A stretch of 64,000 nt of DNA from Sphingosinicella microcystinivorans (lineage in GTDB: Bacteria > Pseudomonadota > Alphaproteobacteria > Sphingomonadales > Sphingomonadaceae), in NCBI RefSeq assembly GCF_003634215.1, contig NZ_RBWX01000010.1, forward strand, positions 62,001 through 126,000, written 5' to 3'. The notes under the pieces were generated by a model. The model saw only the letters and a program-made list of their open reading frames with translations. It did no database searches and was not told the origin of the DNA. This document shows, piece after piece, positions 17,353-46,566 of the stretch (its first letter is position 1; each line of letters starts with the position of its first letter). Made by a program: the position numbers and the translations under genes.

Positions 17353-17593
17353 GGCCCATGACCGGCCCGGCGACCCGGCATTCTCATCGATGCCAGAACT
17401 CCCGGCCGCCTTCTCACACGCCGGCAGCACGCCTCAAGCACACTTGCCGAACCCGTATGATCACGGCTCTGCCCGGGTGCGGTTGGACAAGTAATGTCCG
17501 CGACCTCGCCCGTCCGGTCAGGAATGTCGAGAGTAAATTCACATGATCAGATAAAGCAAGTATATTCTCTTTATTTTTGGGAAGGTGATTGCG
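17353..17593. promoter_or_regulatory. Divergent promoter region between two luxR genes
   Basis: The interval turns AT-rich towards its right end (17530-17580) and contains ACATGATCAGATAAAG with a TGATCA palindrome, a possible regulator site. If the upstream luxR starts at GTG 17430, part of this interval is coding. GGGAAGG at 17579-17585 is spaced 8 bases from GTG 17594 and supports that start for the second luxR. Confidence 0.4.
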
Positions 17594-20669: not shown

Positions 20670-20674
20670 GACGA

Positions 20675-21463: not shown

Positions 21464-21518
21464 GCTTGGTCTTTTGACATGTTTGCAAACCATTGTCGAG
21501 TTTATAATTATTCTAATT

Positions 21519-29662: not shown

Positions 29663-30724
29663 CTACGCTGCCAGCTCCATGAAGCGGGCGACGTCCTGCG
29701 GCGCGATCTGGACGCGGATTCCTGACCGCAGAGCATCGATGCCGAGCATCCGCAGATCCTCGTTGAAGTCCCCGAGCGCCGGCGACAGCACGATCGCCTC
29801 GATCCCGGCCTGTTCAGCCCGGTCGATCAATGCCGCCATCGCGCCGTCTCCTGCCGGATCGTCGTCGCGCGCGATGTAGAGCCGGCGCAGCACGTCCGGA
29901 AAGAGGATGGCTGAGAGATGGGCGGCCGAGAGCGCGGCCACCATCGGCATGGTCGGCAGGGCGCATCTGAGCGACAGCATGGTCTCGATGCCTTCACCTG
30001 CCGCCATCACCGAGCCCGCCGCGCCGAAGCGCACGGCATGACCGAGAAGATCGCCCATCGCCCGTCTCGGCGTGTCGATCGGGGCCTTGCCGAGTGTCGC
30101 TTCGCTGAAGCCGTCGGGGTCGAGCCAGGTGCGATGTGCGCCGGTGAGCTTGCCGCCCAAGGCGGTGACGGCGGCGATCATCGCCGGCCACGTCTCGGTC
30201 GGCGAATGCTCGTCGGGCCGGTAGAAGCAGCGCGGATGGAAACGCAGCGAGCCGGTTTCGTGCAAAGCCGTAATGCCGCGTTTGCGTAAATACGTCTCTG
30301 CGAGAGTGCGTGTCATCGGCTGCGATATGGCAAAGAGCCGCCGTGCGGCCTCCGGCGATCCGGTCGGTGCGTTCGGCTTGCGCGTCCGGCGCTCGTCGGA
30401 TTCCGGTTCGGGATGCGGCAGGCTGAGAAAGCGCCGAGCCTCGTCAGCGACATCCTTGAAGTCGAGGAGGCTGCACGCCTCGCGGATCACGTCGAGCAAG
30501 TCGCCATGCTCGCCGGTCGCCGCGTCGGTCCATTTGCCGGCCGCGCCCTTGCCGGTCTCCGGTCCCTTGAGACGCACGAACATCGAACGGCCCGGCGTGT
30601 TGCGCACGTCGCCGACCAGCCAGTAGCGGCCCTGACGGAAGCCGGAGGAGAGATAGTGCCGGCACACCGCCTCGGCCTGCCGGCCGAGACGCTGCGCCAG
30701 GTCGGAAGCGTCGTGACGGACCAT
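29663..30724 (-). CDS. Toprim-domain primase-like protein of integrative elements
   Basis: The 353-residue protein has an N-terminal region with the CHC2-primase-like stretch FRQGRYWLVGDVRNTPGRSMFV and WTDAATGEHGDLLDVIREA. A Toprim domain at about residues 230-330 contains AAGEGIETMLSLRCALP and LYIARDDDPAGDGAM, which supplies the Asp triad. Such proteins are backbone genes of sphingomonad and rhizobial elements and are probably primases for replication after transfer. Its ATG (30724) shares a base with the TGA of the upstream strawberry-notch gene, so it is translationally coupled. Confidence 0.85.
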   Translation of the reverse strand: MVRHDASDLAQRLGRQAEAVCRHYLSSGFRQGRYWLVGDVRNTPGRSMFVRLKGPETGKGAAGKWTDAATGEHGDLLDVIREACSLLDFKDVADEARRFLSLPHPEPESDERRTRKPNAPTGSPEAARRLFAISQPMTRTLAETYLRKRGITALHETGSLRFHPRCFYRPDEHSPTETWPAMIAAVTALGGKLTGAHRTWLDPDGFSEATLGKAPIDTPRRAMGDLLGHAVRFGAAGSVMAAGEGIETMLSLRCALPTMPMVAALSAAHLSAILFPDVLRRLYIARDDDPAGDGAMAALIDRAEQAGIEAIVLSPALGDFNEDLRMLGIDALRSGIRVQIAPQDVARFMELAA

Positions 30725-33700
30725 CACGCAGCCTCCCGTTCGGAGACGCGCTCAACGGGATAGCGTTCCAGCACTTTGGCCAGCACGCCGGCACCGTTCG
30801 CGTCGGTCGGCACGAACATGCGCAACTTCCACGAAATGATCTCGTGAAACAGGCCATAGGCGCGCAGGCGGTCGCGCATGGTGTCGGTGAAGCCCGATAG
30901 TTCGATGCGATGGGCGCCCATGACGCGCACGCGGCGAAGCTGGAGCCCTTCCGCAAGGTCGAGGATGGTGCTGCCGTCCAGCAATGCCGCGAAGGCATCG
31001 CCCGCCGTCAGCGTGCTGGGGCCGGTCGCGAGCGCGCCCGCGACCCAGGCGGGAGAGACGCGGCGGCCGATGATGCGTTCGCCCTCGTCGGTCTGGAGCC
31101 GATAGACCCGCGTCGACTCGTTCGGCAGCCGCTTCCAGATCGGCAGCAGGAGGCCGGCGACGATGTGGATCGTCGAGTCGGAGAACTCCGGCACCTGCGC
31201 CACTTCGCGATTCCAGGCGGCGGCGAAGGCGTCGCGATCGGCTTCCTGCCAGTGGCTCTCCGCCATCATCTTCAGGGAAGCGTGATGATGCTCCATGGGC
31301 CGAAGCAATCGCACCCGGCGTTCGATCTCGCCGTCGTCGAGCATCACGCTGGGCGCTGGGATCTGCACCGCAGGGCGCCCCGAGCGCTCGTTGACGAGCA
31401 GGACCGCGCGAGGATCGGAGAGGTGGTCGAGCGCCTGGCCGAGGGCCAGCGGCCGGTTGCGCTCGCGCTGCGCGATGGTGAGGAGGCGCGTTTCGGCACC
31501 GGTTGCGGGATGGGTGTAGATGGTGCGCCGGTCGGCGACGACGAAGCTCTCCGCTTTCAGCGTCTCCAGTCCGATATCATAGGTCCCGCTGGTAATAGCG
31601 CCCTCGATCCTCGCATTGAGGAGCTGCTCGAAGGCCGTGAACAGCACGCCCTGCAGGTCGATGGTGAGCGCCAGCAGCCGGTTGAGGAAGGTGGTGATCG
31701 GCGGCAGCTCGTCCTTCAGGCCGCCATCGTCCATCAGGGAGAGGCCCGTAGCGCTCTCGAATGTCTGGAGCGAGCAACCCTCGACCTTGCCGCGCGCGAT
31801 CAGCATATAGAGCTGCCGCAGCGCGTCGCGGGCGTAAGGGCTTTCCAGATTGTCCTCTGGCCGAAACAGGCCCTGACCGCCGGTCTGGCGCTGGCCGCGC
31901 GTGATCGCGCCCAGCGTGTCGAGCCGGCGGGCGATGGTGGAGAGAAAGCGCTTTTCGGCCTTCACATCGGTCGCGATCGGACGGAACAGCGGCGGCTGCG
32001 CCTGGTTCGTCCGATTGGTGCGGCCGAGACCCTGGATAGCGGCGTCGGCCTTCCAACCGGGCTCCAGCAGATAGTGGACGCGCAGGCGCTGGTTCTTCGC
32101 CGACAGCTCCGCGTGATAGCTGCGCCCGGTGCCGCCGGCATCGCTGAACACCAGCACGCGCTTCTGGTCGTCCATGAAGGCGGCGGTCTCGGCGAGGTTG
32201 GCCGAGCCGGCGCGGTTCTCGACCATCAAACGGTCGCCCTTGCGGACAATGCGGCGCGAGCGTCCGGTCACTTCGGCCACTATGTCGGTGCCGAAGCGCT
32301 GGACGATCTGGTCGAGCGCGCCGGGAACAGGTGGCAAGCTTGCGAGCTGCTCGATCAGCCGGTCACGCCGAGCGACCGCCTCCCGGCTCTCGACCGGCTG
32401 GCCGTCGCGATAGACCGGCCGGGAGGAGAGATTGCCTTCAGAATCGGTGAAGGGCTCGTAGAGCTGTACCGGGAAGGAATGCTGAAGGTATGACAGGACG
32501 TATTCGCGGGGCGTGATGTCAACGCGCACGTCATTCCATTCATCGGTCGGAATCTCGGCCAGTCTTCGTTCCATCAGCGCTTCGCCGGTCGAGACGATCT
32601 GCACAACACATGCGTGGCCGTCCTCGATGTCGCGCTCGATCGAGCGGATGAGCGTCGGCGTCTTCATCGAGGTGAGCAGATGTCCGAAGAAGCGCTGCTT
32701 TGTGCTCTCGAAGGCCGAGCGCGCCGCCGACTTCGCTCGGGCGTTCAGCGTGCCGGTCTCGCCGGTGATGTTCGCCGCCTGCATCGCGGCGTCGAGATTG
32801 TTGTGAATGATCGCGAAAGCGCCAGCGTAGGCGTCATAGATGCGCCGCTGCTCGTCGGTGAGCTGGTGCTCGACCAGCTCATATTCGACGCCGTCATAGG
32901 AGAGCGAGCGCGCCGTGTAGAGGCCGAGTGATCGGAGATCGCGGGCGAGCACCTCCATTGCCGCGACGCCGCCGGCCTCGATCGCCTCCACGAACTCCGC
33001 CCGTGTGGCAAACGGAAAATCTTCGCCGCCCCACAGGCCGAGCCTCTGGGCATAGGCGAGATTGTGAACGGTGGTGGCGCCGGTCGCAGAGACATAGACG
33101 ATACGCGCATTCGGCAGGGCGTGCTGGAGCCGGAGCCCCGCGCGACCCTGTTGCGATGGGGCGACGTCGCCCCGTTCTCCCTTGCCACCGGCGGCGTTCT
33201 GCATGGCGTGGCTTTCGTCGAAAATGATCACTCCGTCGAAGTCAGAGCCCAACCATTCGACGATCTGCCTGACGCGCGAAACCTTCTCGCCGCGCTCGTC
33301 GGACCGTAGCGTGGCGTAGGTGGTGAATAGGACGCCTTCCTGAAGCGTGACGGGCTTGCCCTGCGGGAACCGCGATAGCGGCGTCACCAGCAGGCGCTCC
33401 ATGCCGAGCGCGGACCAGTCGCGTTGCGCGTCCTCGATCAGCTTGTCGGACTTGGAGATCCAGAGCGCCTTGCGGTGCCCGCGCAACCAGTTGTCGAGGA
33501 TGATGGCGGCCGACTGGCGGCCCTTGCCCGCGCCGGTGCCGTCGCCCAGCATGAAGCCGCGCCGGAAACGGACCGCGCCCTTCGCATCGTCGGGTGCTGC
33601 CGTGACGAGATCGAAGGTGTCATCGACCGTCCAGCAGCCTGCCAGATAGTCGGAATGCGCCTCGCCAGCGTAGATCACGGTTTCGAGCTGGGCATCGGAC

Positions 33701-34746
33701 AGGATGCCGTCGGTGACGAGGTTTTCGGGCAGGCGCGGACGATAGCTGGGCTTGGGCGGCGCGACCGAGGCCATCGCCGCCGACTGCACGAGCTTGGTGG
33801 GATGCGCCTGAGAGCCGGGAATACGGATCGCCTGAAGTCCGTATTCTTCGTAGATCGCATCGGTCAGGCGTGTGCTCTCGGCCGGTGCCCAATCCACGGT
33901 CTCATAGCTGAGGTCTACGCCCTCGGGTTCGGCGAGCGAGGCGTTCGCCGCCGGCGTCGAGGCGGCCCGTGCGAGATAGCCGCGCACGGTCTTCGGTACA
34001 GGACCAGATGCAACGGGAGCGGCGATGGTCGCGGCTACGGCAGGACGAGGCGGCACATGCTCGGCGATCCAGCCGATGAGCGTTACGACATCGGGGGCGA
34101 TGCCCGGCGATGCGGGGAATGCGGCCGGGTCTTCGGCCGGCGCCTTGTCGATGACGGTGAGCCGCGTCTCGATCGTCGTGCCATGCTTGGCATAGACCGC
34201 GCCGTCGATCGCAGCGGTGAACACCACGCGGCCGCGCTCCTGCAGACGGACAAAGGCGTCGCGCCAGGCCGGCGCATCCGGCGAGAAATTGGTGCCGGTG
34301 ATGGCGACCAGGCGCCCGTCATCGGCAAGGCGCGCCAGTGCCGAGGTGACATGGCGCAAGGCGGCGTCGACCATTCGGCCGGAGACGTTCGCCATCACCG
34401 AGAAGGGCGGATTCATCAACACGACGCTCGGGTTCACCGACGGATCGAGATGATCGTCGATCTGCGCCGCGTCGAAGCGCGTGACGGGCGCAGCCGGAAA
34501 GAGGGAGGAGATGAGGCCGGCGCGGGTGTCGGCCAGCTCGTTGAGGGTCAATGTGCCACCGGCAATCTCGGCCAGGATGGCGAGCAGGCCGGTGCCGGCA
34601 AGGAAACCAACCGCATTGTCGAAGAGGTACTTCCCCCGCCAGCGTGTGGGGGAACTGCACGCCGGCGCGGACGCATGACCGGCCGCCAGCGACGACGCAG
34701 CTTGCTGCCGGTGACGTCGCCGGCGCGATGAAGATGGCGCGCGCAT
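30724..34746 (-). CDS. Strawberry-notch family methylase-helicase, N-terminally truncated
   Basis: The 1340-residue protein combines the remains of a DNA methyltransferase domain (GTGLLAILAEIAGG at residues 51-64, NPPF at 112-115) with an SF2 strawberry-notch helicase. The helicase has a Walker A-like GDGTGAGKGRQSAA, Walker B DESHAMQN and a conserved HAELSAKNQRLRVHYLL region, followed by the strawberry-notch C-terminal domain. Relatives in these elements carry about 150 further N-terminal residues and read VLEPSAGTGLL at methyltransferase motif I. Here the first 50 residues are unrelated and Ser/Arg-rich, so the motif is cut at about base 34597. Helicase function may persist while methylation is doubtful. 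The start overlaps the ArdC stop (TAATG). Confidence 0.8.
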   Translation of the reverse strand: MRAPSSSRRRRHRQQAASSLAAGHASAPACSSPTRWRGKYLFDNAVGFLAGTGLLAILAEIAGGTLTLNELADTRAGLISSLFPAAPVTRFDAAQIDDHLDPSVNPSVVLMNPPFSVMANVSGRMVDAALRHVTSALARLADDGRLVAITGTNFSPDAPAWRDAFVRLQERGRVVFTAAIDGAVYAKHGTTIETRLTVIDKAPAEDPAAFPASPGIAPDVVTLIGWIAEHVPPRPAVAATIAAPVASGPVPKTVRGYLARAASTPAANASLAEPEGVDLSYETVDWAPAESTRLTDAIYEEYGLQAIRIPGSQAHPTKLVQSAAMASVAPPKPSYRPRLPENLVTDGILSDAQLETVIYAGEAHSDYLAGCWTVDDTFDLVTAAPDDAKGAVRFRRGFMLGDGTGAGKGRQSAAIILDNWLRGHRKALWISKSDKLIEDAQRDWSALGMERLLVTPLSRFPQGKPVTLQEGVLFTTYATLRSDERGEKVSRVRQIVEWLGSDFDGVIIFDESHAMQNAAGGKGERGDVAPSQQGRAGLRLQHALPNARIVYVSATGATTVHNLAYAQRLGLWGGEDFPFATRAEFVEAIEAGGVAAMEVLARDLRSLGLYTARSLSYDGVEYELVEHQLTDEQRRIYDAYAGAFAIIHNNLDAAMQAANITGETGTLNARAKSAARSAFESTKQRFFGHLLTSMKTPTLIRSIERDIEDGHACVVQIVSTGEALMERRLAEIPTDEWNDVRVDITPREYVLSYLQHSFPVQLYEPFTDSEGNLSSRPVYRDGQPVESREAVARRDRLIEQLASLPPVPGALDQIVQRFGTDIVAEVTGRSRRIVRKGDRLMVENRAGSANLAETAAFMDDQKRVLVFSDAGGTGRSYHAELSAKNQRLRVHYLLEPGWKADAAIQGLGRTNRTNQAQPPLFRPIATDVKAEKRFLSTIARRLDTLGAITRGQRQTGGQGLFRPEDNLESPYARDALRQLYMLIARGKVEGCSLQTFESATGLSLMDDGGLKDELPPITTFLNRLLALTIDLQGVLFTAFEQLLNARIEGAITSGTYDIGLETLKAESFVVADRRTIYTHPATGAETRLLTIAQRERNRPLALGQALDHLSDPRAVLLVNERSGRPAVQIPAPSVMLDDGEIERRVRLLRPMEHHHASLKMMAESHWQEADRDAFAAAWNREVAQVPEFSDSTIHIVAGLLLPIWKRLPNESTRVYRLQTDEGERIIGRRVSPAWVAGALATGPSTLTAGDAFAALLDGSTILDLAEGLQLRRVRVMGAHRIELSGFTDTMRDRLRAYGLFHEIISWKLRMFVPTDANGAGVLAKVLERYPVERVSEREAA

Positions 34747-35705
34747 TAGGCCGCCTCCCGCTCGCCGGTGTCGACGGACACCGCGAGCTGGTCATGTTCG
34801 GGCATGAAGCTGAGCAGGTAATCGGCGGCCTTGCTCGCCTGGGACGCTGCGCGGACTATGGCACGATTGTCTTCGCGCAGGACGTCAGCCCATGAGGCGA
34901 TGTAATCGGCGTGGCGCACGGTCGGCACGATGCCGAGTGCAGCACAGCAAAATGCCGCTGAAATCTCCGCGACCAGCTCCTCGAAGGCGTACTTCCGGGA
35001 ACCGAAGGAGCCCGAGAGGTCGCGGTTCAGGCGGTGCGGCGCCCCACTGGCGTGGGAGCATTCATGCAGCGCCGTTCGATGCCAGTTGATCGGCTCGAAG
35101 AATGCCTGGGACGGCGGGACCATGACATAGTCGAGCGCTGGCACATAGAAGGCGCGGTCGCCGCCGATGCGGAAGTCGATTCCGCTTGCCTTGATGAGCG
35201 CCTCGACCCTTGGCTCGACCAGGCCGGGCGCGGGCGGCGGAGCGGCAATGGCGAGGTCTTCGGGCAGGCCTTCGCATTGCGCCAGGTTGAAGACCGTGAA
35301 TCGCTTGAGAAAGGGGATGGCCTGGGCGTCCTCGCCGGTCTCGCGGGCGCGCCGCTTTTCGTCATCGGGAACGAAACGGTCGGCGTAGACGACGGTGATG
35401 CCATGCTCGCCCCGGCGGACATGGCCGCCGAGCGAGAGGGCCTGGCGGAAGGTCAGCCAGGTTTGGCAGGGGAAGCCGTGCTGGATGACGGCGCCCCAGA
35501 GGATCAGAACGTTGATGCCGGAATATTGCCTGCCGGTCGCGGCGTTCTTCGGCATGGCGAGTGGCGCCTTGGCCGCTGCTGTTCCCCAGGGCTGGACCCA
35601 GGGAAGCCGGCCGGCTTCCAGCTCGGCGAGGATCCTGCCGGTGACTTCATCATAGAGGCTCGTCCGGTCGGGGCCGGAACGGGCGCGTGTATCGTGTCTG
35701 GACAT
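34746..35705 (-). CDS. ArdC family antirestriction protein
   Basis: The 319-residue protein has the N-terminal ssDNA-binding ArdC domain (SLYDEVTGRILAELEAGRLPWVQPW, read as ILAELEAGRLPWVQPW, then NAATGRQYSGINVLILW). A C-terminal zinc-protease-like domain with HRTALHECSHASGAPHRL (HExxH) follows. ArdC proteins protect incoming DNA from restriction during conjugation. It begins the minus-strand backbone block, with the strawberry-notch gene overlapping its stop. Three GC-rich hairpins lie directly upstream (35798-35863), which is typical of leading-region genes that may be expressed from single-stranded DNA. The protein is full length. Confidence 0.9.
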   Translation of the reverse strand: MSRHDTRARSGPDRTSLYDEVTGRILAELEAGRLPWVQPWGTAAAKAPLAMPKNAATGRQYSGINVLILWGAVIQHGFPCQTWLTFRQALSLGGHVRRGEHGITVVYADRFVPDDEKRRARETGEDAQAIPFLKRFTVFNLAQCEGLPEDLAIAAPPPAPGLVEPRVEALIKASGIDFRIGGDRAFYVPALDYVMVPPSQAFFEPINWHRTALHECSHASGAPHRLNRDLSGSFGSRKYAFEELVAEISAAFCCAALGIVPTVRHADYIASWADVLREDNRAIVRAASQASKAADYLLSFMPEHDQLAVSVDTGEREAA

Positions 35706-35947: not shown

Positions 35948-38900
35948 TCATACGCTGCCGATGATCCGCAGCTTCATCGCGCGGGTCTCCAACAGATACG
36001 TCTCGACCCCGGCCAACAGGTGCAAGCCCTCTTCGGTGATTGCTGCGCGGGAGAGACCCGGCTGCACAATCCTGACGTCGAACTCGTAGCGATAGTCCTG
36101 CCAGCTCGCTTTCAACTTTTTGAGGAACGCAGCGGTGCCTTGCTCGAAGCGTGAGCTTTGCCCCTTGTCCAGGCGCAGCTTCTCGCGCTTCAGCATGTGG
36201 GTGAACATGCGGTTGGGACGGTCTCGCCAGCGCGCCGACTTCTGCGCCTGTCCGCAGACCTCATAGAGATCCTTGACGCGGGCGCCGGGCGTCGCAGCGC
36301 TCGAATATTTGCAGTGATGCAGCGTGACCTGCACAAGGCCCTCGGTGACGCGGAGCGTGACCACATCGGCGATTTCCCCGGCGCCGTCGTCGTCGAAGAT
36401 CAGGTCATAGGCGTCGCCATCGGCGAGCAGCGTGTCGATCACGCGCCGCTGGACGGAGTCGGCGCGTTTCTCAGGGCCTTGGGATTCGGCTCGGATGTTG
36501 GTCTTTGACCAGTCCCACACCTCGATCCGGTCGGCGGGATAGGGCTCGACCGCTTCACCCTCCGGCAGCGCGTAGAGATGGCTGTAGATGAGGAGAGAGC
36601 CATCGCCGAAGTCGATCTGGGGGGAATCGTCACCGAAGGACTCGGACAAGGAGTTTACCTTGCCGCCGATCCTGATGGTGGCCTTGGGACCGGCGCGCTG
36701 CGGATAGCGGGCGCCGCCATCGCTGAACACGATCTCGAACTCGGCGACATGGGCGTCGCTGCGTACCGCGAAACGCAGCGGACCGTTTCGTTCGTGATCA
36801 AGAAGCTCGATGTCGCATTCGGTGAACAATACCGGCTGATCGCCGAAGCTGATCTCGACGCGATCCTCTAGCTGCACCAGCAGCGACTCCGGCCAGTGAA
36901 TCGCGACGGGTGGAACAGCGGGTCGCTCGCTGATCTGTCGAGGCCGCATGGCGCTCTTGAAAACACCATCCGTCGTGATGCCGGGGTCGTTGACAGACCG
37001 GCCGATGTCCTCGCACCATTCGATCCAGTCGGTGAGATCGCGAACGGGCGAAATCGACCAGAACTTGCCCTTTGCCGAGCAGCCATGGGTGGCCGGCACG
37101 CCGTCGAGAAAGCCCGTCGCGAAGACATTGTTCTTGATTCTGGACTGGGACTTGGCGGTGTCGAGGCCATCGGCGACGTCGACGCCCATATACATGGAGT
37201 AGCGCACGCCGCGCCCCTGATGATGGGTGAGGCCGAGGTTGCGCAGGATCAGGCGCTTGAAGCCATGCAGGCTGCGGAACACCTCTTCGCCTTCGACACG
37301 GCGGGTGGATTCGCCGCACACTGTTTTGGCCAGCTTGTCATAAGGCGCCTTCGCCGAGCTGCTGATGTAAAGGAGGCCCTTCGTCTGGTCCCAATGCATC
37401 ATGTGCAGGTCCCAGATGACGTTGGTCGCATGCTGCGCGGTCGTCCATCCGGCCTGCTCCTCCGAACGGGTGACGAAGATGGCCACGCGCTGGTGCGGAT
37501 TGATCTTCATGCCGAGATAGACGCCGGGATTGTAGAGGTCTTCGGCGCGCAGCGGCTCCCAGGCGTCGCACGAGGTTCGATAGACCACGGCATTCATCTT
37601 CGGTTCGAGCGTTTGCAGCGGAATGTCGCTGAGATCGCCGACGAAACCCTTGAACATCTCGGCACGCCGAGCTTGCCGCTCGATGCGCGCGCTGCTGAGC
37701 GCCTCGACCAGCGCGTTCCAGTCTGCATCTTCGGCGTAGAGTTTCGCCAGGGAGCGGTCGATGTCGTCAACGCCGGTATTGGCGATCACTGTCGCGTCCC
37801 CGAGCGTCGGATCCTGGCGGGTGAAGCGACCAACGAACTGGATGGTGACGGCAATGCTCTTGTGTGGGTCGTGGAGCCCCGCGATCTTGAGTTCGGGCAG
37901 ATCGAAGCCTTCACCCAGCATGTCGACGCAGACGATGAGCCGGCTGTCGAACCGCCGAAGCGCGTCCAAATTCGCGCGCCGCTCGCGCGTCGCCTGCTGG
38001 CTATGAACGAGGACAGGCCGAAAATCCGGAAACAGGGCGGTGTAGAGCTGATGCAACGCCTTGGCGCGGTCGATCGTGGAGCAGCGCGCCATGGCGAGAT
38101 GATTGAGGCCGGAATCGAGATCGGCTCGTAGAACCTCTCCGAGCTTTTCGGCGATCGCCTGATCGGCATCGGCCTGATCGAGGCCGAAGACAGCCTCGAA
38201 GCGGATCGGTTTGAAATAACCTTCGGCCTGCGCCTTCTTGAGGGGGTAGGTGTAGATGAACTCGCCATCGACCCGCCGGCCATCTTCGCGAAATGGCGTG
38301 GCGGTGAACTGAACGATGGGCAATGGCGGGTCACGATCGACGAAAAGGCCGCGAAAGCGCGCCCAGGTCGGCGCGCCAATATGATGAGCCTCGTCAATGA
38401 ATAGGGCCGACGCGCGGGCCGCCATTCGCTCCTGAACGGGCGCTTCGGCGCGGCCGGCGATCTGCATCGTGGTGACCACGACATTCGCACTGTCGAATAT
38501 CTGGTCCACGTCCGCGGCGCTTGTCGGGATATGGGAGAGGCGCATGACTACCGGGAAAGCGGCGGAAGCGTCGAGGCAGTCCTGGTGCTTGAGGACGCCG
38601 AAGGTCTCGAATTTTCGGGCGATTTGCTCGCGCAGCGCATCGGTCGGGACGACGACCAGCAAGCGCTCGAACCGCTGATGGGCGTTGAGCGCGAGCATCG
38701 TTTCCGTCTTTCCGGTGCCCGTCGGCATGACGATGGTGGCGGGCTCGGTCGAGCGTGTGGCGTGGGCAAGCGCGGCATGGAGCGCGCCGATCTGTGGGCG
38801 GCGCAGCCCGGGCACCGCCGGTCGGCCGTTCTCGGCGGGGCGGCTTTCCCGCAGGTGGAAAGCGTCCTGCCATGAGGCCGCGACAAGGGCGAGGCGTTCG

Positions 38901-39289
38901 CCGCGCGCGGCCGCATCGAGCGCGGCGATGTCGGTCGGCGTGATGTTGATCCATCGGCCTTCGCCGAGTTCCAACGCCTCGGCGATCTTGGAAGGCTCCG
39001 ACGCGCCCGGCACCAGGAGGATGAGGTCGGCTTCCAGTCGCGTGGCTGTCCTGGCGCTGATGATCTTCAGCGTTTCGCCGGATTTCAGGCTTGCCTCATA
39101 TCCGTTGACACGTCGGATCGAAAATGGCCGGAGCCGGCAGGTTTCGCGCAACGCGGGGACCGCCAGTTGCCGCACCGGGCTCCCAAGCACCCTGCCGTCG
39201 ATCGCAAGGCGCGGGGGAAGCAGCAGCGAGACCTCCTCGTGGAAGAGGTCGTCCTGGACGGAACTGGCAGGACGGTTGCGGGGTGCCAT
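35948..39289 (-). CDS. SF2 DEAD/DEAH-box helicase with possible C-terminal nuclease-like region
   Basis: The 1113-residue protein has Walker A PTGTGKT (residues 189-195), Walker B IDEAHH (about 285), motif III VQFTATPF and motif VI QFVGRFTRQDP, an SF2 restriction-helicase core. A long C-terminal part (about 560-1113) is not recognised. Within it, Asp975 (IADVVTLRV) is followed 19 residues later by HHCK994YS, a spacing that recalls PD-(D/E)XK nucleases with the acidic residue replaced. It is the last gene of a minus-strand operon after the AddA-like gene (14-base gap). A GAGG ribosome-binding site precedes ATG 39289. Role is inferred as DNA translocation in defence; no named system was identified. 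Confidence 0.75.
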   Translation of the reverse strand: MAPRNRPASSVQDDLFHEEVSLLLPPRLAIDGRVLGSPVRQLAVPALRETCRLRPFSIRRVNGYEASLKSGETLKIISARTATRLEADLILLVPGASEPSKIAEALELGEGRWINITPTDIAALDAAARGERLALVAASWQDAFHLRESRPAENGRPAVPGLRRPQIGALHAALAHATRSTEPATIVMPTGTGKTETMLALNAHQRFERLLVVVPTDALREQIARKFETFGVLKHQDCLDASAAFPVVMRLSHIPTSAADVDQIFDSANVVVTTMQIAGRAEAPVQERMAARASALFIDEAHHIGAPTWARFRGLFVDRDPPLPIVQFTATPFREDGRRVDGEFIYTYPLKKAQAEGYFKPIRFEAVFGLDQADADQAIAEKLGEVLRADLDSGLNHLAMARCSTIDRAKALHQLYTALFPDFRPVLVHSQQATRERRANLDALRRFDSRLIVCVDMLGEGFDLPELKIAGLHDPHKSIAVTIQFVGRFTRQDPTLGDATVIANTGVDDIDRSLAKLYAEDADWNALVEALSSARIERQARRAEMFKGFVGDLSDIPLQTLEPKMNAVVYRTSCDAWEPLRAEDLYNPGVYLGMKINPHQRVAIFVTRSEEQAGWTTAQHATNVIWDLHMMHWDQTKGLLYISSSAKAPYDKLAKTVCGESTRRVEGEEVFRSLHGFKRLILRNLGLTHHQGRGVRYSMYMGVDVADGLDTAKSQSRIKNNVFATGFLDGVPATHGCSAKGKFWSISPVRDLTDWIEWCEDIGRSVNDPGITTDGVFKSAMRPRQISERPAVPPVAIHWPESLLVQLEDRVEISFGDQPVLFTECDIELLDHERNGPLRFAVRSDAHVAEFEIVFSDGGARYPQRAGPKATIRIGGKVNSLSESFGDDSPQIDFGDGSLLIYSHLYALPEGEAVEPYPADRIEVWDWSKTNIRAESQGPEKRADSVQRRVIDTLLADGDAYDLIFDDDGAGEIADVVTLRVTEGLVQVTLHHCKYSSAATPGARVKDLYEVCGQAQKSARWRDRPNRMFTHMLKREKLRLDKGQSSRFEQGTAAFLKKLKASWQDYRYEFDVRIVQPGLSRAAITEEGLHLLAGVETYLLETRAMKLRIIGSV

Positions 39290-39303
39290 CGATCGCCCTC
39301 GCT

Positions 39304-42300
39304 TCAGGCCGCCATGGCCTGGGCCGAGGGCGAGACGGTGATGATGGCACCGGTCGTCATCAGCACGATCAGTCCGCGCTCGGCGCCGGTCATGTCGAGA
39401 TAGGCGCGGACTTGCGAGCGATAATGATCGAGCGTCTGGGGATCGGGGTTCACGTCGCTCTTCCAGTCGATGATGACGACTGGGCGACCCTCGGCAGTCA
39501 AGGTCAGCGCGTCCGCGATGCCAGCGGTCGCCGTCTCCTCGCTCTCATCCGCGCGGGCGGCGTAAACGGGGAACTCGGCCAGAAGCGCCGGGCGCAATGC
39601 CGCGATCTCGGGCAGAGCCAAGGTCCGCATGACACAGCCCGCCAGCTCCTCGGGTGAAAGACCCGTCGCCGGATCGGCAACGGGCGAACGGCCGAGCGCC
39701 CTGATGAGCACGTCGGCGCGTTCGGTAAGGGCCGGCGCGACCGCATCGGTTTCTCCGGTCAGGACTTCCTCCATGAGCTTATGGAGGATCAGCCCGCGCT
39801 GGCGGCCGCCCTGGACCGCGACTGCCGCCTCAAGTTCACGCGGCTGGTCATCGCCCGAGCCCATCCAGATTCCGGCCTCTTGCTCCTGGAGCAGGGCGCC
39901 GGACGCGCTCTCGTCGCGGCTCGGCGCCAGCCAGACGAGGCGCGTCTGCCGGGCGGCGATGGCCGCAGCCTGGGCCACGAAAATGTCGCGCGTCTGGGTG
40001 TTGCCCGCGCCAGCGCCGGCGACTGCCTCCCCGAGCGGCAGATGCGAGACATCGAGGCCGGGCAGATCGGCAAGCGACAAATCGAGCAGGCCGATCCAGG
40101 CCGATCTTGAGGGTGTCGTATCGAGCCGTGGCAGAACGAGGAGTTCGCGGGCGCGCGTCGCCGCGACATACCAGAGCCGGATGCGTTCGCGATCCAACTC
40201 GTCCTTTTCCGCCTGGCGCGCGGTCTCATAGCCCTCGGGCGCGACGCCGAGAACCGGGCAATAGAATGTGTCGGTCAGGCGGTCGATCGCCGCGCTGTCG
40301 GGCGCCATGACGCTCGTCATGGTGTTGACGGGGATGACGATTGGCCATTCGAGGCCCTTGGCCGCGTGCATGGTGAAGAGCGCGACGGCTTCTTCCTGCG
40401 CGTCGGGCCGGCCTTCCACGGCGCGCGCCTCGTCGGTCCAGGCTGCGGTCATCGCTTCGGCGAAGGCGCGAAGGCCGCGCACGGCGTAACCCGTCGACAG
40501 GCTCAGATACAGATCGACATTGGCGAGCGCGCGTTCGGCCTGGCCGCGATGACGCTCGAGGAGGAGGGGCCGAACCCGCATCACGTCCACGGCCTGCGAG
40601 AGAAGCTCGTGCGGCGTCGTGCTGTTGCTGCGGCGGTAGAGCGCCTGCAGCTTCTCGATGATCTCGCGTGCGAGCGGATGAGCGATGGCGCCAGGATCGA
40701 CGCCGAGATCGAGACGAGGAATCCGGTCGGGCTGTTCGTCGGAACGCGGCAGCGCCCAGATGATATCCAGAAGTTCCTCTTCTGTGAGGCCGACCAGGGG
40801 GCCGCGCAGCAGCGCGCCGAGCGCCAGCGTATCGCGCCGGTCGGCGAGAACGCGGGTCAGCGCGATCAGGTCCTGGACCTCCTGCCGGCGGAAGAGACCC
40901 TTGCCGGCCTGTGTCGCCACCGGAATGCCGCGACGCTCCAGCGCCTCCTCATAGCGCCACAGTTCGGCGCCGGTCGGCGCCAGCAGAGCGATGTCGCCCG
41001 GCTGGCAAAGACGTTCCGCGCCGCTGCGCCGGTCGATGATGGGCTGGTTGCCGATCAAGCGCGCGCACAGTTCGGCTACGGCGTCGGCTTCGGCGTCGCG
41101 CTGCTGCTCGGCACTGGCCTTGCCGTTTTCGTCGGCGACAGCGATGTCGAGCGCCGCGACGCACAGGCCGTCGCCGGGATCGTCGTGAAACGGGTCGAGG
41201 GCGGTGAAACCGGGTTGGCCATCCGCCGATAGCACCGGCTCGAAGCGCTCATTGACGAAAGTGAGGATCGACGCGCAGGAGCGGAAATTGGTGGAGATCG
41301 ACAGCAGGCTGTCGGGATCCTGAGCATGAAAGGCGTCGCGCGCTTGCACATAGGCGCCGACATCGGCGCCGCGGAAGCGATAGATCGCCTGCTTGGGGTC
41401 GCCGACGAGGAAAAGTGCACCCGGACGGATCCGGAACCGGGTCCAGTCAGGATCGCCATCGACCGGCTCGCCGCACAGCCGCCAGAAGATTTCGGTTTGC
41501 AGGGGATCGGTGTCCTGGAACTCATCGACCAGGACGCGCGCGAAGCGCTGTCCGAGTGCGCGGCGGACATCATCATGGTCGCGCAGCAGATCGCGCGCGG
41601 CAAAGATCAGATCATCGAAGTCGAGCTGGGCGCTCGCGCGCTTGTGGTCGCGATAGCGCTGCAGGATCGGACGCGCCTCCTCGATCAGCGCCGCCAGAAC
41701 CTGGCTGGCCGCCGCCTGAAGAAGCGAAGTCCAGGCATCGCAGCAGGCGGTGTAGTGGCCTTCGGCGGCGATGTTCAGCCGCTCACCATCTGCTTTGGAG
41801 AGGCCCGCGTGCTTCGCTGCTTCGGTCCATTTGCCCTTCTTGCGATAGCAGGCGAATGTGCCTGCCTTGGTGCAGAGATCCGAGTGCGGACGCGAGGTCA
41901 GAAGCCCAACCAAGCCCGAGGGCGTCGTGGGATCGGGACCAACCGTCAGCGCGGTCGCCATCTCGGCCAGCCGCTCGACGATCACGACGGTTTCCGGCTC
42001 GGTCTCCGCCGCTCCGCTCATGAAGGCCGCGAAATCCGCCGTCGCCTGCCGGAACGCCGTCAGATGACCGTCGAGCGGGGAGACGGGCGGCGCCGCGAGG
42101 GTGCGGCGGCGCCGCATATTTTCGGCGATCTTATGGACGAGCGCCACGGTTTCACCGGGGCTGTGGAGCACCATTTCGGCAAGGATGCCGCCTTGGTCGC
42201 CGGACAGACGCTCCCGCAGCCAGCCATCGACGATCTCAAGGAAGGTGAGATCGGCCTGATTGCGGTCCATGACGCCGGCGCCGGGATCGATGTCGGCTTC

Positions 42301-42696
42301 GGCCGGGTAGGGCTTGATCAGGCGCTGGCAGAAGCCGTGAATGGTCGAGCAGGTGATTTCGTCGATCGCGGCGCTCGCGGTCGCGAGATTGTCGCGCTGC
42401 ACCCGCGACAGGCCTTCGGGCAGCGCCACGCGCAGCTCGGCCGCGATGTCGCCGGCCGAGAGGTCGGCGACAATTTCGCGGACGCGCGAGAGAAGCTCGC
42501 TGGCCGCCAGCTCGGTGAAGGTGACGGCGGCGATGGCCCGCGGAGCGACGCCCTCGGCGAGCATGATGGCGATGCGTCCGGCTATGACGGCGGTCTTGCC
42601 AGAGCCCGCGCCGGCTTCGACCAGGATCGACCGATCATGGAGGCTGATCGCGTCGCGGCGCGCGCCGTCATCCTTGAGGGCCACGCTGCTCATCAT
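39304..42696 (-). CDS. AddA-like UvrD helicase with C-terminal RecB-type nuclease
   Basis: The 1130-residue protein has an SF1A helicase core with Walker A EAGAGSGKT (residues 27-35), Walker B VLVDEFQDTDP, motif III FLVGDPKQAIYRFRGA and motif VI WYVAATRARELLVL. A C-terminal PD-(D/E)XK nuclease follows, with Asp1062 (GIADAL), Asp1077-Trp-Lys1079 (IIDWKSD) and a following QVRAYL motif. This is the AddA architecture. It overlaps the end of the AddB-like gene by 4 bases. A housekeeping addAB would normally stand alone, whereas here the pair is tied to an SF2 helicase and a small basic protein next to BREX, which points to a defence role. ATG 42696 or 42693 are equivalent starts. Confidence 0.85.
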   Translation of the reverse strand: MMSSVALKDDGARRDAISLHDRSILVEAGAGSGKTAVIAGRIAIMLAEGVAPRAIAAVTFTELAASELLSRVREIVADLSAGDIAAELRVALPEGLSRVQRDNLATASAAIDEITCSTIHGFCQRLIKPYPAEADIDPGAGVMDRNQADLTFLEIVDGWLRERLSGDQGGILAEMVLHSPGETVALVHKIAENMRRRRTLAAPPVSPLDGHLTAFRQATADFAAFMSGAAETEPETVVIVERLAEMATALTVGPDPTTPSGLVGLLTSRPHSDLCTKAGTFACYRKKGKWTEAAKHAGLSKADGERLNIAAEGHYTACCDAWTSLLQAAASQVLAALIEEARPILQRYRDHKRASAQLDFDDLIFAARDLLRDHDDVRRALGQRFARVLVDEFQDTDPLQTEIFWRLCGEPVDGDPDWTRFRIRPGALFLVGDPKQAIYRFRGADVGAYVQARDAFHAQDPDSLLSISTNFRSCASILTFVNERFEPVLSADGQPGFTALDPFHDDPGDGLCVAALDIAVADENGKASAEQQRDAEADAVAELCARLIGNQPIIDRRSGAERLCQPGDIALLAPTGAELWRYEEALERRGIPVATQAGKGLFRRQEVQDLIALTRVLADRRDTLALGALLRGPLVGLTEEELLDIIWALPRSDEQPDRIPRLDLGVDPGAIAHPLAREIIEKLQALYRRSNSTTPHELLSQAVDVMRVRPLLLERHRGQAERALANVDLYLSLSTGYAVRGLRAFAEAMTAAWTDEARAVEGRPDAQEEAVALFTMHAAKGLEWPIVIPVNTMTSVMAPDSAAIDRLTDTFYCPVLGVAPEGYETARQAEKDELDRERIRLWYVAATRARELLVLPRLDTTPSRSAWIGLLDLSLADLPGLDVSHLPLGEAVAGAGAGNTQTRDIFVAQAAAIAARQTRLVWLAPSRDESASGALLQEQEAGIWMGSGDDQPRELEAAVAVQGGRQRGLILHKLMEEVLTGETDAVAPALTERADVLIRALGRSPVADPATGLSPEELAGCVMRTLALPEIAALRPALLAEFPVYAARADESEETATAGIADALTLTAEGRPVVIIDWKSDVNPDPQTLDHYRSQVRAYLDMTGAERGLIVLMTTGAIITVSPSAQAMAA

Positions 42697-45350
42697 TCCG
42701 CCTCCCAGATTTCAGCGACTTGACCGAGCCGTTCGGTCGCAGCCGGCAGCTTGCGTTTGCAGTAAGTGGCGCTGGCGTTCGCCGGCAGGGCGAAGGCGAG
42801 GTCGTCATAGTCGCCGCCCGTGTCGGGGCCTGGCAGCGCGGCGCCGCCGGCGAAACTGATCCTGGCCGCACCCAGATAGCCGGTGATCTCAGCGAGCACC
42901 GCCTCGGGATCTTCGAGCTGGAGGTCGACCTGTTCGCGCGGGAACAGCAGTGAGGCGCTGATCGCGATATCGTCGCCCAGCAGCGCCTTCACCGCGAAGG
43001 CGTAGAGGCAGCGCTGAAGCTCCCGTCCGCCGTTCAGCCGGATCGCGGCCCGGGGAGCCCGGCCCGTCTTGTAGTCGCGAACGAGCGCGCGCTTGCCGTC
43101 GCCCGCGATGTCGAGCCGGTCGATATAGCCGGCGATATTGAACCCTGTATCGGGGATCGTGACTGGCACGGCGGGATCCCACGGGGTCTCCGCGTCCGAC
43201 TTGGGCTCAGCCCCGCCGAAGGGCACCTCGCCATAGGAGCGGGCACCCGGCAGAAGCGCATCGCCATATGCAAGAGCCCGGCCTGCCAACAGCCGGGCAT
43301 CATCCAGGGTGCGCCCCCAGATGACGGCCGGCGGGACCGCGCGTTGGCTCTCCCAATCGGCGGCGACAACCCCTGCGGCCCGGTCCACCGCCGCCGTGAT
43401 CTTTGCGGCGTCGGCGGATGCCAATCCCCCGGCGCTTTCCAGGTCGCGCAAGGCGCGGTCGAGAACCACGTGAACCAGATCGCCGACGCCCAGCGCATCG
43501 AGCACGAGCGGCTCGGCGCTGCTTTCGGGCACGTGCCAGCCGAAGGCATAGACCCAGGTGAAGCTCAGCGGATTGCGCAGCAGACGCCGGAGCGAGCTAG
43601 CCGACTGGGTACGGGCCAGGATTGCCAGAATGAGCGGATGATCGCGCCGGATGAGCCCGTCATGCGCCGTGATCTCGGTGCGCCGCCAGTCGCGCCAGCA
43701 GCCTTGCGCGCTGACCGCCTGCGGATCGGCGCTGAACTCCTGCGGCCGGGCCATGAGGCGGTCGGTTTCGCTGAAGGCGTGGGCCGGCACGGCGTTGCGG
43801 CGGAGATAGACCTCCTCGCCATGCCCGGCGAGCAGCGGGCTGCGTCCCAGCAGGCGCCCGTCGCTGTCGCGCCGGGCGCGCGAAAGGACGACTTCGCCGT
43901 TCGTGGTCGCCAGGATCGTCTCGAAATCGCGGCGATCGGCGAGGCTCGCCGGAAGCGGGTCGAGCTCGGCCGTCGGGATGATATGGTCCGGGATCAGCCG
44001 GTCTTCGGCGATTCCGCGCGGCCAGCGCGAGGAGTTGAGGCCGATCAGCCGCACGAAGCGGCGCGGCGAGGCCGCGAGCGCACTGGCCGGCATCCAGGCG
44101 ACGGACACGCACGCGTCCAGCCCGTCGTCCTGCTTCAGGGTTTTGAGGGTGGCGTCGATCGAGGCCGCCGGCCCGGCGAGAAGGGCCTTGCGCCAGATGG
44201 CGAGCGCGCGGCCGGTGAGGAAGGCCTCGCCGATCTCCGGCGCTGCGGCCGGCCCCTTGGCGAGCAGGTCGATGGCTGCGCGCAAGGTCGGAGCGTGATC
44301 CGCGCCGTCCGGCCAGTCCTCGGGCTTCAGTCGCGCCAGCAAGCGGTTCCAGGCGTTCGGCGTCGACATCGGCGCATCGGCCGGCAGGACGCGCAGCCAG
44401 CCTTCGGGAAGCGACTCAAACGGCGCGGAGTCCCGACACAGGGCGGCGAGGCGGCGGAGCCGGGACTGCGACAGGCCGCGAACCGCGATATCGGCCAGCG
44501 CGGCGGCCGCCTGGCCTTCACGAGTGGTGACGGCCCTGACGCCATGGACGAAGTGCAGGTCGATATTGGCGTCCGCGCGCAGGGCGAGAAAGTGATCGTC
44601 ATAGTCGGCGGGCGAGGCAGTGGCGATCGCGATGTCAGACGGCGCCGCCCGCCCGGAGGCGAGGAGCGACCGCGCCCAGCGCACGGCCTCGATGGCTTCG
44701 TGATAGGCCGTCGCGGCGCTGACGGCGCTGACCTGCGGGGTTTCCGAGGGTGCGCGCAACACCGCGACGCCGGTGCTTTCCAGCCAGGCTGGCGCCGGCC
44801 TCGGCCCGGCCGTCCATTGCACGGGAATGTGCGCGGTGAGCGCCCCAAGGAGCGGCCGCCAGATGGGCGAGAGTTCGGTGAGGCCGGCGATCTCCATGGG
44901 GCCGAGAACGGCGGGCGCATGGGCGATACGGCTGGTCGCGGCGGCGACGATGTCGATGGGACGGGTCATGCCAGCGGGAAGCTGCGTCAGGACCGCCGCC
45001 TCCAACCGGGCGATGGCGTCGAGTCGCGGATGCTCGGCCGCGCGCGCCGCAAGGTCGATACCGGCGCGCCAGGCCTTGTGCAGGGTGTCCGCCGCCGCGT
45101 CGATCATGCCGGGCAGCGACTTGATGCTCTCGAGCTCGCCCATCGGCGTTGACGGCAGGGCGGCCTGGATCGCCGCGCGCAGGCTTTCGTCATCGATTGG
45201 CCGGACGAAACCTCCGGCGAGCCGCACCGCCGCCTGCTCGAAGGACATGACCTGCAGGCCATGACGGCCGGCGCGCGCCGCCGCGAGGCGGCGTTCCCGC
45301 ATGGCGAGGCGGCCGTGAACGATGAGGGTGGATCGACTCGCGCCGGCCAT
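42693..45350 (-). CDS. AddB-like PD-(D/E)XK nuclease family protein
   Basis: The 885-residue protein has an inactive-helicase-like N-terminal half and a C-terminal RecB-type nuclease domain. Residues of that domain are Asp744 in GYIDRLDIAGDGK and Asp759-Tyr-Lys761 in VRDYKTG. The four cysteines that hold an iron-sulfur cluster in classical AddB are not seen, and only isolated cysteines occur in the C-terminal part, so the cluster is probably absent. GGAG precedes ATG 45350 by 7 bases. It follows a 47-residue basic protein gene (20-base gap) and overlaps the AddA-like gene, so the four genes form one operon, divergent from BREX. Confidence 0.8.
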   Translation of the reverse strand: MAGASRSTLIVHGRLAMRERRLAAARAGRHGLQVMSFEQAAVRLAGGFVRPIDDESLRAAIQAALPSTPMGELESIKSLPGMIDAAADTLHKAWRAGIDLAARAAEHPRLDAIARLEAAVLTQLPAGMTRPIDIVAAATSRIAHAPAVLGPMEIAGLTELSPIWRPLLGALTAHIPVQWTAGPRPAPAWLESTGVAVLRAPSETPQVSAVSAATAYHEAIEAVRWARSLLASGRAAPSDIAIATASPADYDDHFLALRADANIDLHFVHGVRAVTTREGQAAAALADIAVRGLSQSRLRRLAALCRDSAPFESLPEGWLRVLPADAPMSTPNAWNRLLARLKPEDWPDGADHAPTLRAAIDLLAKGPAAAPEIGEAFLTGRALAIWRKALLAGPAASIDATLKTLKQDDGLDACVSVAWMPASALAASPRRFVRLIGLNSSRWPRGIAEDRLIPDHIIPTAELDPLPASLADRRDFETILATTNGEVVLSRARRDSDGRLLGRSPLLAGHGEEVYLRRNAVPAHAFSETDRLMARPQEFSADPQAVSAQGCWRDWRRTEITAHDGLIRRDHPLILAILARTQSASSLRRLLRNPLSFTWVYAFGWHVPESSAEPLVLDALGVGDLVHVVLDRALRDLESAGGLASADAAKITAAVDRAAGVVAADWESQRAVPPAVIWGRTLDDARLLAGRALAYGDALLPGARSYGEVPFGGAEPKSDAETPWDPAVPVTIPDTGFNIAGYIDRLDIAGDGKRALVRDYKTGRAPRAAIRLNGGRELQRCLYAFAVKALLGDDIAISASLLFPREQVDLQLEDPEAVLAEITGYLGAARISFAGGAALPGPDTGGDYDDLAFALPANASATYCKRKLPAATERLGQVAEIWEAE

Positions 45351-45370
45351 GGCCGCTCTCCTGCCGGGGA

Positions 45371-45514
45371 TTACTTCTTGTTCGGACGCTGGGTGAGCGC
45401 CGATGCGGCGGCTGTCTTTGCGGCCTTACTGCTCTTGGGATTCCGCAGCACCTTGGCGGCAGCGCTCGCCGCCCGCTTGCTGGTGACTTCGCACTTGGAA
45501 CCACGTTTCGGCAT
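45371..45514 (-). CDS. 47-residue basic, alanine/lysine-rich protein
   Basis: A short gene from ATG 45514 has AGGGGG spaced about 8 bases upstream. The product begins MPKRGSKCEVTSKRAASAAA, contains KVLRNPKSSKAAKTAAASAL and ends TQRPNKK. It is strongly basic with Ala/Ser/Lys repeats, resembling small histone-tail-like or DNA-binding proteins. It is the first gene of the AddB-AddA-SF2 helicase operon and lies 128 bases from the divergent WYL regulator. A nucleic-acid-binding accessory is plausible. It could also be a stand-alone small protein that merely shares the promoter. Similar small basic proteins are common in proteobacteria without known function. Confidence 0.65.
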   Translation of the reverse strand: MPKRGSKCEVTSKRAASAAAKVLRNPKSSKAAKTAAASALTQRPNKK

Positions 45515-45642
45515 GGTCTTGCCCCCTGAAATTCGCGCCGATCACCATTGACTGGCGCTGCAGATGGGAATAATAATTACACGGATCGCGTCGGTATGTC
45601 CATATACTTTTTATCCCCATCGACGCGCGGAGATGAAAAGCA
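45515..45642. promoter_or_regulatory. Shared divergent control region between the helicase-nuclease operon and BREX
   Basis: The 128 bases hold both promoters. CGCGTCG (45587-45593) and CGACGCG (45621-45627) are 7-base complementary arms enclosing an AT-rich core with GTATGTCCATATAC (GTAT/ATAC). GGAG at 45629-45632 precedes the regulator ATG. BREX WYL regulators (BrxR) bind inverted repeats upstream of their own operon, so this is the probable operator. If so, BrxR could also control the divergent operon. Confidence 0.5.
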
Positions 45643-46566
45643 ATGTTGGAAGGCGCTGCGGCGTTGAAATGGGGTGTGGAGCGGCGGCTCGAGTTCATCG
45701 AGTTCCGGCTGTTCTGGGAGGGCGGGGTCAACCGCTCCGACATCATCGAGATGTTCGACGTGTCCGTGCCCCAGGCGTCGAAGGACCTGACGCTCTATCA
45801 GGAGCGCGCGCCCCACAACGCGATCTACGACAAGAGCGCGAAGCGCTATGTCGCGAGTGCGCAGTTCTCGCCGATCTTCCTGAAGCCTGATCCCGACGGT
45901 TATCTGTCTCGCCTGCGCTCGCTGGCGGAGGGGCTCACCGAGCCCAGCGAATCCTGGATCGCACATCCGCCCGAGACGGACATCGCCTTGACGCCGCGCC
46001 GGGCGGTCGACTCAGGCGTCTTGCAGGCGATCCTCAGCGCGGTTCGCGAACACCGCTCGATCGATGTCCATTATCAATCGATGAGCGGCAAGCGGGCCGA
46101 CCCCATGTGGCGGCGGATGACGCCGCATGCTTTCGGCTATGACGGCCTGCGTTGGCATGCACGCGCCTATTGTCACATCGACAGCAAATTCAAGGATTTC
46201 CTGCTGCCTCGGATCCTCGGGGTGCGTGACATGGATCGTCCCGGACCCGGCGGCGATCAGGATACATTGTGGCAGGAGACCTTTGACATCGAGATCGGTC
46301 CTCATCCTCGCCTGACACCGAGCCAGCGTGCGGTGGTTGCGAAGGATTACGGGATGACGAAGGAGCGGGCGGTCTTAACGGTGCGCTACGCGATGCTCTT
46401 TTATGTCCTCAAACGCCTTGGCCTTCTAAGCGATGCCAGTCAGCAGGATCCTCGCACCCAGCATATTGTCGCGCTCAATGCTGCAGAGACCGCACGCGCC
46501 CTAAAGCGCGCCGAATTCGAACTCGATGAGGCCGAGCAGGCTCCCAAGGTCAGGGGGCGCGCTTGA
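45643..46566 (+). CDS. brxR: WYL-domain transcriptional regulator of BREX (BrxR-like)
   Basis: The 307-residue protein has an N-terminal winged helix (about residues 8-60: ERRLEFIEFRLFWEGGVNRSDII, read as RLEFIEFRLFWEGGVNR, then FDVSVPQASKDL). A WYL domain at about 130-200 contains IDVHYQSMSG and RRMTPHAFGYDGLRWHARAYC, followed by a WCX-like C-terminal domain. BrxR-type regulators sit upstream of type I BREX and repress it, with a ligand presumably sensed by the WYL domain. Its stop overlaps the start of brxA (TTG 46563), which makes it part of the operon. Confidence 0.85.
   Translation: MLEGAAALKWGVERRLEFIEFRLFWEGGVNRSDIIEMFDVSVPQASKDLTLYQERAPHNAIYDKSAKRYVASAQFSPIFLKPDPDGYLSRLRSLAEGLTEPSESWIAHPPETDIALTPRRAVDSGVLQAILSAVREHRSIDVHYQSMSGKRADPMWRRMTPHAFGYDGLRWHARAYCHIDSKFKDFLLPRILGVRDMDRPGPGGDQDTLWQETFDIEIGPHPRLTPSQRAVVAKDYGMTKERAVLTVRYAMLFYVLKRLGLLSDASQQDPRTQHIVALNAAETARALKRAEFELDEAEQAPKVRGRA

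Follow-up and report, generated by a model that had tools for sequence, protein, structure and literature searches.

The window considered here, a stretch of 64,000 nucleotides from Sphingosinicella microcystinivorans, carries a compact cassette of helicase and nuclease genes on the minus strand that diverges from a type 1 BREX operon. The cassette encodes a small basic protein, an AddB-like and an AddA-like subunit and a superfamily 2 (SF2) helicase, and a WYL-domain regulator heads the BREX arm. The genes and features at this locus are the following:

45371-45514, minus strand: small basic protein of 47 amino acids (aa), an open reading frame (ORF), regarded as accessory
42693-45350, minus strand: AddB-like subunit of 885 aa, with PDDEXK_1 (4.5e-15) and nuclease residues D744/D759/K761
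39304-42696, minus strand: AddA-like subunit of 1130 aa, with UvrD-helicase (2.2e-53), UvrD_C and PDDEXK_1
35948-39289, minus strand: SF2 helicase of 1113 aa, with ResIII (1.2e-19), Helicase_C and, probably, a C-terminal PD-(D/E)XK-like domain (E972, D975, H992, K994)
45573-45606, minus strand: conserved divergent promoter/operator block TATATGGACA-N11-TCCGTGTAATTAT in the gap between cassette and WYL gene, a putative operator
45643-46566, plus strand: WYL-domain regulator (BrxR-like), matched by PADLOC WYL models, heading the divergent BREX operon

The first-pass annotation of this DNA had described four minus-strand ORFs that overlap or lie 14-20 nt apart, and this layout holds: by coordinates, 20 nt separate the small gene from AddB, AddB and AddA overlap by 4 nt, and 14 nt lie between AddA and the helicase gene. 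The divergence from BREX is found as well, with the WYL gene 128 nt from the start of the 47-aa gene and followed by the six genes BrxA, BrxB, BrxC, PglX, PglZ and BrxL, all of which are model matches.

The two large subunits have the make-up of an AddAB-type enzyme. Pfam detects the UvrD N- and C-domains as well as PDDEXK_1 in the 1130-aa AddA-like protein, which carries the Walker motifs with a DEXQ-type Walker B, and the nuclease motif is present in both subunits. The AddB residues D744, D759, K761 and Q779 are kept in all 24 aligned rows and the ATPase residues K34, D391 and E392 of AddA in 20 of 20. The AddA nuclease residues D1062, D1077 and K1079 are found in 19 of the 20 rows; the remaining row, locus L095, is gapped, and its AddA is cut short beside an IS3 transposase. 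K761 and K1079 had been named earlier as nuclease lysines, which the alignments bear out. No helicase domain was reported by Pfam in the N-terminal part of the AddB-like protein, which we take, by analogy with AddB, to be of the inactive-helicase type. Compared with locus L016, the ratio of nonsynonymous to synonymous substitution rates (dN/dS) lies between 0.07 and 0.14 across the three large genes (AddB, AddA and helicase). Purifying selection has maintained all the catalytic motifs.

Profile scores and the AddA tree set this pair apart from the housekeeping addAB of the genome. The window is part of C4 (62001-126000). On C1, elsewhere in the genome, a housekeeping AddB scoring 777 bits (cut-off 486.5) lies next to an AddA scoring 1026 bits (cut-off 860.75). 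The AddA of the window reaches 288.6 bits on the addA_alphas model, well under the same cut-off, and for its AddB no TIGR02786 match was reported at E 0.01, with 39 bits on TIGR03623. A tree was built from 57 AddA proteins, and one branch with an SH-aLRT support of 100 splits its 31 mobile from its 26 housekeeping rows; the mobile rows had been thinned from 61, the housekeeping rows came from 30 plus the genome's own after length and ambiguity filters, and locus L030 forms a very long branch. Housekeeping identity is therefore rejected on the scores under the equivalog cut-offs, the genome's own addAB on C1 and the separate branch, in agreement with the first-pass annotation. AddB was not found in five other genomes of the genus (0/5) nor among 50,697 phage records; it is present in 64 of 72,556 plasmid records, 40 of which are predicted to be conjugative.

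The genes around the pair are exchanged. The distance, tree, partner-label and border analyses were carried out without L110, L112 and L122 (duplicates of L038, L037 and L095) and L124 (housekeeping), and L030 was also dropped from the partner-label analysis. To the right of the pair, the resulting 56 loci have the helicase (32), Azaca (8), another gene (15) or a contig edge (1), so that Azaca or other genes stand in for the helicase at 23 of the 55 loci with a readable right side; these shares are not population frequencies, since the helicase-seeded loci favour the helicase. The left partner is most often Hma (19 loci), followed by BREX (8), Shango (6) and a multiubiquitin-ThiF-DUF6527 set (5), with something else in 18. 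Mapped on the AddBA tree, the partner labels change at least 19 times on the left and 8 times on the right. For its 8 rows the BREX label takes 7 changes, against 7.6 in shuffles, with 152 of 500 shuffles as low. In the system search (PADLOC-DB 2.0.0, 2023), Shango was named from SngA/B/C at 345/586/908 bits, Azaca from ZacA/B/C at 388/541/1043 bits and Hma from the HmaA model at 1586 bits. BrxC, HmaA, ZacA or SngC is present in the fetched flank of 17 of the 33 AddB-seeded loci (for this count only the duplicate L122 was dropped). The pair is closely packed against SngC and ZacA. BREX membership of the trio was considered and rejected, as BREX is the left partner in 8 of 56 loci and neighbours are swapped; the BREX linkage noted earlier is real in the window, where BREX is one among several partners. 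In a Desulfosarcina plasmid (L097:10513-20152), AddBA follows nucleotidyltransferase, ThiF and Mov34/PAD-1 genes, a set that resembles type II CBASS.

The borders of the exchanged segments often coincide with gene ends. Twelve of the 73 close pairs compare the Shango-linked loci L022, L048 and L093 with L019, L020, L021 and L045 at 93-96% DNA identity; here the shared segment begins 15-45 nt inside AddB and stops 2 nt short of the end of the helicase gene, and each side offers no less than 3.9 kb of dissimilar sequence. These 12 pairs represent few events, because three near-identical Shango lineages are set against four related loci. The right border is seen in L022/L045, and L019/L020 share an ArdC flank past an insertion. 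In seven helicase/Azaca pairs (L059, L038, L055 and L018 with L115/L116; L100 with the window and L114), homology begins no more than 25 nt from the AddB start and breaks off 39-52 nt ahead of the AddA stop, and in L091 against the window and against L114 it ends exactly at the helicase stop. Longer shared flanks weigh against sharp borders elsewhere: L036/L051 and L018/L038 are homologous further to the right. Between the window and L114 (G263), identity is 96% over the stretch that spans ArdC and the whole trio; beyond WYL, the window has BREX and L114 has Hma. In blocks of 100 columns, their WYL genes are 80-97% identical for roughly the initial 550 nt and 60-72% identical thereafter. The genes at 45643-46566 of the window and L114:12908-13792 thus look as if recombination inside WYL had swapped BREX for Hma. 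Judged from these alignments and labels, the pair, and the pair with the helicase, are units with sharp gene-end borders whose neighbours (BREX, Hma, Shango, Azaca and the ubiquitin-like set) change many times. Directly downstream of the cassette (29663-35705), the window encodes an ArdC-type protein, a strawberry-notch-type helicase and a Toprim-domain protein; other loci, too, have ArdC and the notch helicase next to the trio.

The first-pass annotation had called for a neighbourhood survey of the trio, and this survey was positive, with the whole trio in the same gene order and at full length in 30 loci, the window included. Helicase relatives in genome contigs (the best 80 of 146, kept as 76 loci) fall into two groups. 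At 76-88% identity there are 50 loci, 45 of them with at least 1 kb upstream; AddA lies upstream in 36 of these 45 and is missing in 9, and among the 36 some AddA genes are cut, eroded or, in L030, strongly diverged. At 37-53% identity, AddA or AddB was found in none of 26 loci, two of which have less than 1 kb upstream. All seven plasmid records with a helicase of at least 80% identity are also AddB records, and helicase relatives also occur alone on enterobacterial plasmids. Pairwise distances correlate at 0.995 for AddA-AddB (56 loci), 0.79 for helicase-AddB (31 loci), 0.63 for helicase-AddA (34 loci) and 0.72 for AddB-WYL (34 loci). These distances point to AddB-AddA as an invariant core that evolves as one, with the SF2 helicase as a common and exchangeable third gene. 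An obligatory three-gene system is rejected, since other genes replace the helicase at 23 of 55 readable right sides and 9 of 45 close helicases lack AddA. The trio proposed earlier is therefore real and ordered, and the fixed part of it is the pair. It is also more than chance, because of the 30 whole loci, the dN/dS of 0.07-0.14 and a ratio of nonsynonymous to synonymous polymorphism (pN/pS) of 0.17 for the small gene. Surveys of the class gave AddB in at least 12 of 385 genomes (three of these are matches of 35-56 residues and one is broken), the helicase in at least 2 of 385 and HmaA in at least 12 of 289; all are lower bounds, as two first-look candidates per genome were scored.

In the SF2 helicase, residues K194, D299, E300, E972, D975, H992 and K994 are kept in 35 of 35 relatives. 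The structure model of the whole protein (pLDDT 82.1, pTM 0.59) has RadD, XPB, SauUSI and type I R subunits as its nearest folds. Modelled alone, the last 199 residues reach pLDDT 93.3 and pTM 0.90, and in this model D975 starts and H992-C-K994 ends neighbouring strands. Foldseek returned weak matches of this part to FokI (best E 0.028), Shedu and, further down, XPF/Mus81, and none at E 0.001. The helicase probably carries its own C-terminal PD-(D/E)XK-like nuclease. RadD was rejected as its identity (55.8 bits against a cut-off of 720), as was Hachiman HamB, with no Ham model among its 21 PADLOC families. In the Pseudomonas loci L033 (4816-9945), L049 and L072, a close SF2 helicase follows a protein of 1709-1726 aa, which in L033 is a RecQ-type and UvrD-type fusion downstream of Mokosh-type genes. 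L068 and L072 hold one close SF2 helicase in two parts (residues 7-575 and 558-1112), separated by about 0.1 Mb in a single Pseudomonas chromosome record.

The gap between the cassette and the WYL gene contains the block TATATGGACA-N11-TCCGTGTAATTAT, which is the single match in the window at up to 3 mismatches, with 0 expected in shuffles. An exact looser pattern of the block is present in 18 of 157 loci (some of them duplicates), and mismatched versions are found in additional loci linked to BREX or Hma. The distance between block and WYL gene in BREX- and Hma-linked loci is 7-59 nt. Promoter-like hexamers lie on both strands at 45548-45602, and the block itself includes hexamers directed toward AddB. 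An inverted repeat, TATATGGA/TCCGTATA, can be read in the alignment; the repeat search at the settings used did not return TATATGGA/TCCGTATA, and the single inverted repeat that it found in 45480-45660 is a short palindrome outside the block. L065, which has the helicase without AddBA, also carries the block, and therefore the block goes with the WYL gene. Its recurrence in aligned loci indicates that a conserved divergent promoter block ties the cassette to the WYL-headed neighbour operon. The WYL protein itself is likely a co-regulator and not a member of the exchanged unit, and it is predicted to bind the block at 45573-45606. In PMC9122601, BrxR is described as a WYL repressor of a BREX island whose binding sites are inverted repeats close to its own promoter, and its family as co-localising with many systems.

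The small basic protein is a lesser component. It had been listed as part of the cassette, and its ORF is present and under selection (the pN/pS of 0.17 was obtained from 12 equal-length copies); it occurs upstream of AddB in 15 of 64 loci and is therefore not essential to the unit. It is also found in three plasmid records and has no Pfam match.

The reading we prefer, to which we give a probability of about one half, is that of a horizontally moving AddAB-type helicase-nuclease pair with an exchangeable third helicase, acting as a plug-in unit of defence islands and brought here under control of the promoter region that belongs to a BrxR-like WYL regulator. Because the unit sits beside several anti-virus systems, a swappable DNA-degrading add-on is suggested, and the earlier claim of a mobile cassette of defence type is supported in this respect. 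We infer an anti-phage function with the following mechanism. The AddB-AddA heterodimer would enter double-stranded DNA ends and degrade invading DNA processively. The SF2 helicase, which resembles RadD, XPB and restriction translocases, would recognise or open foreign DNA and so make ends or flaps for AddBA; another system, in place of the helicase, could supply the substrate. Until infection or damage, the WYL protein would keep both arms switched off. Compared with the resident AddAB, the advantage would be an enzyme unseen by phage anti-RecBCD/AddAB proteins, or one ignoring Chi. RecBCD/AddAB is described in PMC12904381 as a main barrier to phage DNA and a main target of phage inhibitors, over which several defence systems watch.

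Several points weigh against this reading. Sixteen of the 33 AddB-seeded loci are without the four profiled systems, several of these having other defence-like neighbours by annotation, and genes may sit in a defence island through hitch-hiking. Enzymes of the AddAB kind have further roles in recombination and repair, and plasmids often carry the pair. The plasmid loci, 20 of the 64 AddB records, were hand-picked rather than random. The evidence for the C-terminal nuclease of the helicase consists of conserved residues and weak fold matches. In addition, the set from which one AddA profile was built very probably included the genome's own housekeeping AddA (a 1112-aa ORF in L002), because of which the bits on that profile fail to separate mobile from housekeeping proteins; the AddA tree separates them.

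There are several alternatives. The pair, with or without the helicase, could be an independent defence system that shares its location with BREX, Hma, Shango and Azaca and has no functional tie to them. The free exchange of neighbours, none of which is required, and the 30 whole trios speak for this, and we hold it to be a serious candidate, at somewhat less than even odds; against it stand the divergent promoter block common to the WYL-BREX and WYL-Hma arms, the tight packing against SngC and ZacA and the recurrent choice of the same few partners. A further reading, in which AddB-AddA is a general DNA-degradation engine around which recognisers (BREX, Hma, Shango, Azaca or the SF2 helicase) are swapped, with one WYL-controlled divergent promoter switching both on, is in our judgement rather unlikely. 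If it were true, the cassette would provide a destructive arm for BREX-type systems and a phage-proof second AddAB.

A function outside defence, as a maintenance or recombination module of plasmids and other elements, would make the pair a spare AddAB for breaks in the element, placed in defence islands as variable cargo zones. AddAB is known for break repair, AddB is found in 64 plasmid records, and some loci adjoin plasmid genes (DUF1403/ScpB, repABC) with no profiled defence system. The host, however, already has an addAB, the pair joins SngC, WYL-BREX and WYL-Hma directly on the left and ZacA on the right, and recombination modules are common in phages, whereas AddB is absent from the phage records searched; we consider this explanation unlikely. 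Even less probable, in our view, is a reading in which the defensive role belongs to the SF2 helicase and one helicase lineage has captured AddBA as an accessory. The 37-53% relatives lack AddBA in 26 of 26 loci, helicases stand alone on enterobacterial plasmids, and conservation is higher in the helicase than in AddBA (mean distances 0.16 and 0.24), but 23 of the 55 readable loci have AddBA and no helicase, and the pair is the more constant element. A partner-swapping mobile AddAB, the preferred reading, would mean that defence systems are built from a shared degradation part and interchangeable sensors, and it makes the cassette a testable answer to what, if anything, destroys DNA after BREX or Hma acts.

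Other genes of interest are present in the window. Within the BREX operon, in the gap between BrxC and PglX (51344-53067), there is a HEC-02A/HEC-02B pair (338 and 231 bits), which also resembles AriA of PARIS, and just past BREX (61752-62348) a RES-domain protein, possibly a toxin. An AbiEii toxin and AbiEi antitoxin, a type IV toxin-antitoxin pair, lie at 19752-21493, and two autoinducer-binding LuxR-type regulators on opposite strands at 16600-18418. The TonB receptor, S9 peptidase, asparagine-synthase-like and transglutaminase-like genes at 6688-13731 resemble a lasso-peptide cluster.

In comparison with named defence systems, PADLOC assigns neither the AddB-like nor the small protein to a family, and it places the AddA-like and SF2 proteins in generic helicase families only. 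The HmaABC, SngABC and ZacABC models are not among the 21 families of the SF2 protein, do not match the AddB-like or small protein, and are not among the matches listed for the AddA-like protein (25 of 48 families). Literature searches, with subscription papers and preprints mostly outside their coverage, returned no description of an AddAB-like defence cassette. An AddB-like nuclease beside CRISPR-like repeats is described in PMC10910872. The cassette thus consists of known enzyme families in an arrangement without a name in PADLOC-DB 2023 or in these searches, as the first-pass annotation had supposed. Gabija (GajA-GajB) also combines a UvrD-type helicase with a nuclease, and the AddA-like protein matches GajB models (at most 122.8 bits among the matches listed); however, the match covers the helicase core only, and in place of a GajA-like (OLD/Toprim) partner the cassette has two RecB-type nuclease domains, so that the GajA ATPase-Toprim protein next to GajB that marks Gabija is lacking. 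Hachiman (HamA-HamB) similarly pairs an SF2 helicase with nuclease activity, and PMC12278908 offers for it a candidate logic of sensing DNA intermediates, but the SF2 protein has no Ham model among its families and the cassette no HamA-like gene. RadD, XPB, SauUSI and type I R subunits are the nearest solved folds to the helicase core, whereas the long extra middle and C-terminal regions of the window helicase have no counterpart in them. BREX, Hma, Shango and Azaca are direct neighbours of the cassette in different genomes; among the matches listed, its proteins match none of their models as members, and the cassette is constant while the neighbours vary. The closest likeness is to AddAB (TIGR02784/TIGR02786) and RecBCD, with two subunits, an SF1 helicase and nuclease in AddA, a nuclease in AddB, addB directly followed by addA and the same catalytic motifs, and the cassette differs from them in being mobile, in residing in defence islands with a third helicase and in accompanying a separate addAB elsewhere in the genome.

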